A stretch of 64,000 nucleotides of DNA from assembly GCA_028280225.1 (NCBI GenBank), contig JANQMF010000102.1, positions 1 to 64,000 on the forward strand, read 5' to 3'. Origin of the DNA: Pseudomonadales bacterium (GTDB lineage Bacteria; Pseudomonadota; Gammaproteobacteria; Pseudomonadales; Azotimanducaceae). The translations under genes and the position numbers were made by a program. Below, piece by piece: positions 21,687 to 23,021 of this stretch; the first letter of the stretch is position 1; each line of letters starts with the position of its first letter. The notes under the pieces were generated by a model. It was not told the DNA's origin. It worked only from the letters and a program-made list of their open reading frames with translations, and did no database searches.

Positions 21687-21947
21687 TTTGTTCTCCTTAT
21701 TGGTATGGAACGAGTTAACGCTTGCCAGAAAAAACTTTTTGTCCTTTCTTCCCACGCTTGTCTGACGGGAACCTCCCGTGCAGCGCAAGGGTATCAAAGC
21801 CCGGGGTCCCGGTGCTGCCCTTGTTGATCATTCATCAGCACCCTGGTGAAGCCGGATCACATGAATTGTGGCTGACCGGCGAGTTGCGAGTATACTGCAC
21901 GGACCGCACCCGGGTGGTAAACAGGCAACAGAAACGGGGGACCCCCC

Positions 21948-23021
21948 ATGTACGCTCATGACACTCTGCTCAGGGAAACCCTGATCACGGCCCACGCACA
22001 AAGCTGGCAAGCCATTGCCGCCCCCGGAGCCTTTTTGACCGGTGCCCAGCGGGTGGAGGTGGTACGCACCACCCGGGACGCACTATTCTGCGAGTTGTGT
22101 CACAAGCGGAAACAGGCACTGAGCCCCAATGCCGTCGCGGGCGAGCACGACTACCTTGGTCCTTTAGAACCCGAAATGGTTGAATTGATCCACCGCCTGC
22201 GCACCGACCCGGGCAGATTAACCAAGGCCTGGTTTGACCACCTGGTGCAAGCCATGGGAAAAGAAACCTACGTGGAAATTGTCAGCATCGTTTGCAGTGT
22301 TGTCATCATCGACACCCTGCACAACAGCTTGGGTTACGGAGTGCCTGAGCTGCCGACACCCAAACGCGGACAACCCAGTGGGGAAGTTAACCCGGATGCC
22401 GTGGATGACGGCGCCTGGGTACCCATCGCCGCCGGGACAACACAAATGGCAGATACCGGCTTGCCCGTAGTGCCCAATATCGCGCGCGCCCTGGGGCTGG
22501 TGCCCAGTGCCTTCAGCCTCTTCTTCTCCACTTTCCGCCCCCACTACGCGCTGAAGGATATCAATCTTTCCATCAGCCAAAGTCAGGCGGAATACGTGGC
22601 GGCACGGGTGAGTGCCATGAATGAGTGTTTCTACTGAACCACCTCACATACCATGCTGCTCCGGGCGAGCAGCGCGCAAGAAGGCCACAACGCTGATCTG
22701 CAGAGCGTCACCGATACATCCTTAAGTCCCGGGGTGCCCCAAGGTGACTGCCTGGCTGAGCTGACCGAAACCACAATCAACGGTGACTGGTTACACATGG
22801 CACAGATCCGCGGACGGGCGGAAGCCACCATGGGTCCCCAGCAGGTGGTTGATGCATTAACCGTGGCGGCGGCTTTTAACGGCATCACCCGGGTAGCTGA
22901 CGCCACCGGCATCCCCCTGGATGATAATACGGCAGCGGTGACACAAGATATGCGGTTACAAACGGGTATCGAAAATTTTGCTTACGCGAGCAAATCCGCC
23001 CGTTACGACAAGCTTAATTAG
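21948..23021 (+). CDS. AhpD-like peroxidase-related selenoprotein (in-frame UGA = Sec)
   Basis: Two ORFs (21948-22637 and one opening at 22653) are in the same frame, separated only by TGA at 22635-22637. Read through, they give one 357-aa carboxymuconolactone decarboxylase/AhpD-like protein. The TGA falls inside NECFY-TGA-TTSH, so decoding it as selenocysteine gives C-F-Y-U-T-T-S-H, the AhpD CxxCxxxH redox motif with Sec at the second Cys (C227/U230/H234). A second CxxC, CELC, is at 48-51. A seven-bp hairpin follows at a distance typical of bacterial SECIS elements, and a selenium gene (mnmH) is in the window. AhpD-like selenoproteins are a known family. The alternative is a Cys-to-stop mutation (TGC or TGT to TGA). 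Thiol/selenol peroxidase-linked reduction is the likely role. Confidence 0.8.
22635..22637 (+). other. Recoded TGA (selenocysteine codon 230)
   Basis: This TGA occupies the position of the resolving or attacking cysteine of the AhpD motif and is followed by 127 further in-frame sense codons that match the second half of the family. The recoding is inferred from this alignment and the hairpin downstream. Confidence 0.75.
22655..22673 (+). promoter_or_regulatory. Candidate bacterial SECIS hairpin
   Basis: GCTGCTC (22655-22661) pairs perfectly with GAGCAGC (22667-22673) around the loop CGGGC. The apical loop begins about 24 nt after the TGA and has G as its second base, fitting the known bacterial SECIS rules of a short G-bearing loop 16-37 nt downstream. 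SelB would bind it. The element lies inside the coding sequence, as is normal in bacteria. Confidence 0.6.

Follow-up and report, generated by a model that had tools for sequence, protein, structure and literature searches.

One reading frame in the window (the whole stretch of 64,000 nucleotides analysed here) raises a simple question: is it a broken gene, or does it encode a selenoprotein in which an internal TGA is read as selenocysteine (Sec)? The frame 21948-22637 starts with ATG and stops at the TGA at 22635-22637, and the same frame is open onward to a TAG at 23019-23021. When the TGA is taken as Sec, the product has 357 residues with a single U, at position 230 in NECFYUTTSH, and the CFYUT motif corresponds to CFY-TGA-T at 22626-22640. 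The original prediction of two open reading frames split by a single TGA in CFY-TGA-TTSH, and joining into a protein of 357 residues, is thus borne out by the sequence. The features discussed below are collected in Table 1.

Table 1. Positions of the features at the locus and of one neighbouring gene (window coordinates unless a locus is named).
Feature	Position	Strand	Description	Evidence
AhpD-related selenoprotein gene (CFYUT family)	21948..23021	+	357 aa with Sec230, stop TAG	NF041238, 402 bits
Predicted N-terminal AhpD-like domain	21972..22397	+	residues about 9-150	AF2, Foldseek; no Pfam match
N-terminal CELC motif	22089..22100	+	residues 48-51	Cys-Cys in 91/99 rows
C-terminal AhpD/CMD domain	22467..22982	+	residues about 174-345; E215, C227, Y229, U230, H234	Pfam, NCBIfam, sequence and structure matches
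In-frame TGA, selenocysteine codon (almost certain)	22635..22637	+	residue 230	TGA conserved across the loci read
SECIS-like hairpin	22655..22673	+	stem 22655-22661 with 22667-22673, loop CGGGC 22662-22666	covariation, fold
O-acetylhomoserine sulfhydrylase gene	L048 4552-5955	-	one of 19 loci	

The product is a member of a known family

The joined product matches the NCBIfam family NF041238 (AhpD_rel_CFYUT) with 402.2 bits (E 2.2e-120, cut-off 175) over residues 9-345, corresponding to positions 2-356 of the 357 of the profile. It does not reach the cut-off of canonical ahpD, TIGR00777 (13.7 bits vs 191.95). The window protein is a member of NF041238, with no difference in kind. In the parts available of the literature searched, this accession is named in a single text, a 2026 review (PMC13188914), which equates the family with 'hypothetical protein 1' from the selenoproteome of the Sargasso Sea published in 2005. 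The available part of the 2005 study (PMC1088965) reports hypothetical protein 1 with a CXXU motif and a predicted SECIS and, separately, AhpD-like CXXU selenoproteins; AhpD-like 1 and 2 are listed in the corresponding part of the GOS study (PMC2398784). These AhpD-like and CMD-like selenoproteins likewise carry CxxU in an AhpD/CMD-type protein, but they form separate families (COG2128/TIGR01926 and PF02627 in the available parts of PMC2398784 and PMC13188914), and the window protein differs from them in having about 150 residues ahead of its AhpD domain.

The TGA is conserved among the relatives

We searched for the family in genomes at large and in genomes related to that of the window. The genome scan confirmed 267 stretches, of which the best 80 were retained, giving 79 loci, and the TGA is present in all 79, after CFY or CYY. 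A motif script made 68 of these 79 calls; the other 11, missed or mis-hit by the script, were read by translation and are all CFYU. The scan was not biased toward TGA, because one of its two patterns came from an alignment with C replacing U. Among the related genomes, the TGA follows CFY in all 30 loci that were fetched, the window's own (L037) included. The two sets overlap, so that the 109 loci read in total are not independent.

The related-genome search gave some match in 44 of 58 genomes, and a match over the cut-off in 30. It produced 47 rows over the cut-off: 45 have one TGA (one of these also has a TAA), and the two without a stop are a TGC homolog and an N-terminal fragment. Loci were obtained for 30 of the 47 rows and, in addition, for L155; the other 16 rows are represented by their stop count. 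L155 (G030:C41:9762-10808) is the sole Cys (TGC) member among the loci read, and the same genome also has TGA members. Relatives thus carry TGA at this position, not TGC or TGT, and a read error at 22635-22637 is very unlikely since they hold it at the same place.

In comparisons with six of six near relatives, nucleotide differences are dominated by third codon positions after the TGA, as they are before it. For L048, differences at the three codon positions number 37/26/63 over the 108 codons after the TGA and 60/42/116 over the 229 codons before it, the 16 codons adjoining the TGA being tallied separately. This concentration on third positions indicates coding selection downstream of the TGA.

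Within the genus, 28 of 37 genomes (the window's own included) have a family match over the cut-off, and within the order 2 of 21; in a sample of 398 genomes of the phylum, at E 1e-40, the window's own genome is the only one with the family. These counts describe a patchy family, concentrated near the window's genus. The nearest named relatives of the window's genome are Pseudomonadales and other gammaproteobacterial MAGs; Myxococcota and Deltaproteobacteria are also named in the titles of the genome-scan stretches. In L107 a second family gene stands in tandem with the first, and in L079 and L085 it is on the opposite strand, in each case no more than a few kb away. Four members (L019, L033, L035, L036) are longer at the C-terminus by about 25 residues, a basic and leucine-rich stretch which the window protein lacks.

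A SECIS-like hairpin follows the TGA

A hairpin begins 17 nt past the TGA (Table 1). We analysed its conservation in a gapless alignment of 96 distinct, N-free segments of 54 nt from the TGA onward. The stem positions pair in 90.5% of 672 cells, vs 85.1% in shuffles (0/500 as high) and 28-51% in structures slid along the alignment, and cells with both sides changed number 31, vs 12.9 in shuffles (0/500). Stem pairs changed on both sides number 4, a count reached by 25 of 500 shuffles. The closing pair, which joins the third bases of two codons, is intact in all 96 distinct sequences (CG in 86, UA in 9, UG in 1); the two outer stem pairs are broken in 28 and 31 of these.

The constraint on the closing pair is visible in codon usage. 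Its Leu codon is CTC or CTT in 96/96 segments; elsewhere these make up 37% of the Leu codons of 51 family genes (counted in 51 of the 79 genome-scan loci). A Fisher test on the 96 segments, in which relatedness is ignored, gives 8e-12. On a tree of 96 rows, built after removal of the fragments L047, L103 and L114, the closing pair changes state at least six times; the independent pairs on this tree, too few for a test at four, gave three in the same direction, none in the opposite one and one without change (p 0.25). In the Cys homolog L155 the two codons read TTA and GTG; the closing and the two outermost pairs are lost, and four of the seven pairs could still form.

Two other scans gave negative results: Rfam at gathering scores has no match in the whole window, and the fold energy of the window's hairpin is not better than that of shuffles (z -0.72, 46/200 as good). 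A SECIS hairpin just after the TGA is the mark of SelB-dependent selenoproteins, and covariation places one here. In the mechanism that we propose, SelB with Sec-tRNA would be recruited by this hairpin and would insert Sec at the UGA.

The genome encodes selenocysteine genes

The genome of the window (4.4 Mb in 242 contigs, 96.7% complete) encodes selA (521 bits), which adjoins selB (339 bits) on contig C49, and selD (272 bits) on contig C181, all over the cut-off. The search for tRNA-Sec (selC) in this 96.7% complete assembly gave no hit over the cut-off, and its five sub-cut-off hits are tRNA-Ser (three), tRNA-Gly and tRNA-Trp. Hence, of the genes on which the original prediction depended, selA and selB are in place together with selD, and selC is the one that the assembly did not yield. 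The contig ends within selB, which runs off it after 382 residues. In a sister genome (L156), selA, a 614-residue selB and tRNA-Sec come in succession, the latter 47 bases past selB. Because tRNA-Sec directly follows selB there, the gap after selB probably holds selC in the window's genome. In the search of the genus, tRNA-Sec was found in 25 of 40 genomes and selA over the cut-off in 29. The family gene itself is adjoined by selA in L097, L110 and L121, and in L107 selA is about 2.5 kb from one of the family genes.

The selD gene (L015 1411-3555, minus strand; contig C181 of G000) is the back part of a frame of 714 aa, and its SelD part has Cys in MRCGGCGAKL. By eye, the front part has the look of an NADH dehydrogenase-type flavoprotein. 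The frame resembles the Ndh-SelD fusions named in the available part of PMC2398784.

Alternative readings of the TGA

Could the TGA be a true stop, the locus being a pseudogene in decay or two separate genes? TGA is a stop in translation table 11, an ATG at 22653 could open a downstream frame of 122 aa, and selC gave no hit over the cut-off in the window's genome. We nevertheless rejected the pseudogene and two-gene readings, to which we give very little credence, given the TGA across the 109 loci read (overlapping sets), the coding selection past it, the hairpin with its paired changes at third codon positions, and the selA, selB and selD genes of the same genome. A changed code, in which TGA would be read as Trp or another residue, is more improbable still. 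The frame is open whatever sense reading the TGA gets, but 6 of the 16 window ORFs checked end in TGA, the position aligns with the Cys of AhpD relatives and with the TGC of L155, and the Sec genes are present; this reading was rejected too. The TGA is almost certainly a selenocysteine codon, and we infer that Sec is inserted in vivo.

Two observations concern the surroundings of the gene. The sequence GGGGGACCCCCC at 21936-21947 is immediately 5' of the ATG and could fold into a hairpin at the start region. Scans for promoters and terminators near the gene found sites in numbers no higher than in shuffles.

The C-terminal domain has the AhpD active-site set

Pfam places a CMD domain at residues 209-243. 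We aligned the window protein with 24 of the 30 related-genome loci (leaving out L022, L023, L030, L039, L047 and the window's own L037), and drew two further alignments from 51 of the 79 genome-scan loci. Residues E215, C227, Y229 and H234 are invariant in 99/99 rows; 98 of these have Sec at residue 230 and the remaining one has Cys. The Glu-x11-Cys-xx-Cys(Sec)-xxx-His set of AhpD alkylhydroperoxidases is therefore found in all 99 rows. As foreseen, the TGA position aligns with the Cys of AhpD relatives and with the TGC of L155. The available part of PMC3141380 gives the same spacing for PA0269 (Glu36, Cys48, Tyr50, Cys51, His55), and for AhpD of M. tuberculosis the set Glu118, Cys130, His132, Cys133 and His137, with His for Tyr. 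Since the set matches those of PA0269 and M. tuberculosis AhpD, Sec230 takes the place of the second Cys.

Sequence and structure comparisons agree with this assignment. In sequence searches, the C-terminal domain finds chains of the AhpD fold (6k40 at E 8.8e-13). The full-length model has a pLDDT of 95.5, and its first nine Foldseek matches are AhpD-fold (2prr, 6k40, 2oyo, 3c1l; E 0.02-0.07), with no structural match at E 0.001 for either this model or that of the N-terminal domain. The proteins PA0269 (2ijc, 2o4d), 2prr (YP_296737.1) and 6k40 are like the window's C-terminal domain by sequence and are among its top structural matches, but they have Cys where the window protein has Sec, and their chains have 145-197 residues vs 357. 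An AhpD-like enzyme with Sec in its redox motif, as originally predicted, is what the family score of the joined product and the conservation of the TGA support.

By analogy with the AhpD mechanism, the selenol of Sec230 would attack the substrate and Cys227 would resolve the intermediate via a selenenylsulfide. The protein would thus most likely be a selenol-dependent hydroperoxide reductase or another disulfide-forming oxidoreductase. Another reading, which we regard as possible and somewhat doubtful, is that the C-terminal domain is not a peroxidase and belongs to some other oxidoreductase or dehalogenase-like enzyme with the same C-xx-U site. Both models have the debrominase Bmp8 among their structural matches, and we saw no family-wide neighbour: the commonest neighbour cluster, the family gene itself aside, occurs at 19 of 80 loci. 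Against this, no row departs from the AhpD proton-relay set, and the chains matched best by sequence and by structure bear the names AhpD or peroxidase-related.

An O-acetylhomoserine sulfhydrylase gene adjoins the family gene in 19 of 80 loci (the 79 fetched and the window stretch). It lies on the other strand, just 5' of the family gene, in the 12 of 12 loci with positions seen. The gene is absent from the 14-kb window stretch that was compared, and we rejected an essential link between the two for this reason.

A predicted second AhpD-like domain

The original prediction also placed a second redox pair, CELC, near the N-terminus, and we located it there (Table 1). The surrounding domain is what is new here, since the family itself was already known: we predict that the N-terminal half repeats the AhpD-like fold, CELC standing at the place that CFYU has in the C-terminal half. 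Modelled alone, the N-terminal 150 residues have an AF2 pLDDT of 95.4, and the first 12 places of a Foldseek search of the PDB are filled by AhpD/CMD-fold chains from 6 entries, at E 0.29-3.4. Superposition with these 12 is poor (rmsd 8.7-10.0, TM by query 0.47-0.58). In the full model, the third helix of the N-terminal half (32-47, then 49-56) begins with CELC and its C-terminal counterpart (211-224, then 228-244) with CFYU; each domain core ends in a long helix (105-127 and 297-320).

Sequence comparisons returned little for this half. A profile of residues 1-150 against one of residues 160-357, a test of duplication by sequence, gave E 0.17, and the reversed control did better, at 0.09. Pfam has no match to the N-terminal half of the window protein and scattered weak ones among 52 rows (best E 0.0048). 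With the profile of this half, an unrelated chain (E 0.54) ranks ahead of the AhpD 6k40 (E 0.76). The doubled fold hence rests on the ranking of the structural hits, as the sequence profiles, E values and superposition are weak. The available parts of the literature searched contain no mention of a doubled AhpD fold in NF041238.

What would the N-terminal pair do? The place of the relay Glu holds V, I, L, M, Q or R and that of the His holds K, R, Q, L, A or N, never Glu or His, in 97/97 covering rows. The absence of the proton relay makes a peroxidase role of this domain unlikely. Of 99 rows, 91 have CxxC and 2 have CxxT; the other 6 have a gap, 2 of them being rows cut short. Six Sec-keeping relatives of 97 are without CxxC (CxxT in 2, the pair missing in 4, L047 among these), and the trait changes at least twice on the 96-row tree. 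L047 has a TAA 21 codons past its TGA and may be a pseudogene or carry a sequence error.

These counts bear on the internal electron relay of the original prediction, in which CELC would take electrons from a reductant and hand them to the Cys227-Sec230 bond, making the enzyme a self-contained peroxidase. The prevalence of CxxC, its position at the start of the third helix like that of CFYU in the C-terminal half, and the predicted AhpD-like nature of the domain fit this scheme. It is not supported as stated, because the domain is without relay residues in every covering row and six of 97 Sec members do without the pair; we consider it unlikely. The existence of such members shows that a relay is not a general rule, and passing of electrons by the N-terminal pair is possible in most members. 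The pair is more likely to be auxiliary or structural, or its domain to be the docking half of a pseudo-dimer, than to belong to a second peroxidase.

Resemblance to sestrins and meaning for the family

The predicted layout recalls Sestrin2, which, according to the available part of PMC4674687, has two AhpD-like globular domains per chain related by twofold pseudo-symmetry. The match to Sestrin2 5dj4_B is weak (402 aligned columns, TM 0.41, rmsd 13.9, rank 27, E 2.8, prob 0.18). The sestrin active site, in the same source, is in the first domain and has one Cys, whereas that of the window protein is in the second domain and has Cys and Sec. As the sestrin active site sits in the other domain, the window protein is not assigned to the sestrins. 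A looser relation, as improbable in our view as the relay, is that the CFYUT family is a bacterial counterpart with a sestrin layout, in which a CxxC domain would feed or sense a Sec-hydroperoxidase domain. If so, one polypeptide would join peroxidase and reductase halves that are separate proteins elsewhere, and the fact that hardly any of the loci read has a Cys form would signify a chemistry dependent on Sec.

Overall, we regard it as likely that this locus is a functional selenoprotein gene in which UGA is decoded as Sec and two AhpD-like domains are joined in one chain. Several agreeing lines of evidence turn what looked like a split gene into a working selenoprotein, of a family without known function. 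If the second AhpD-like domain and the scarcity of Cys forms among the loci read are upheld, they would give concrete ideas of what this family does.
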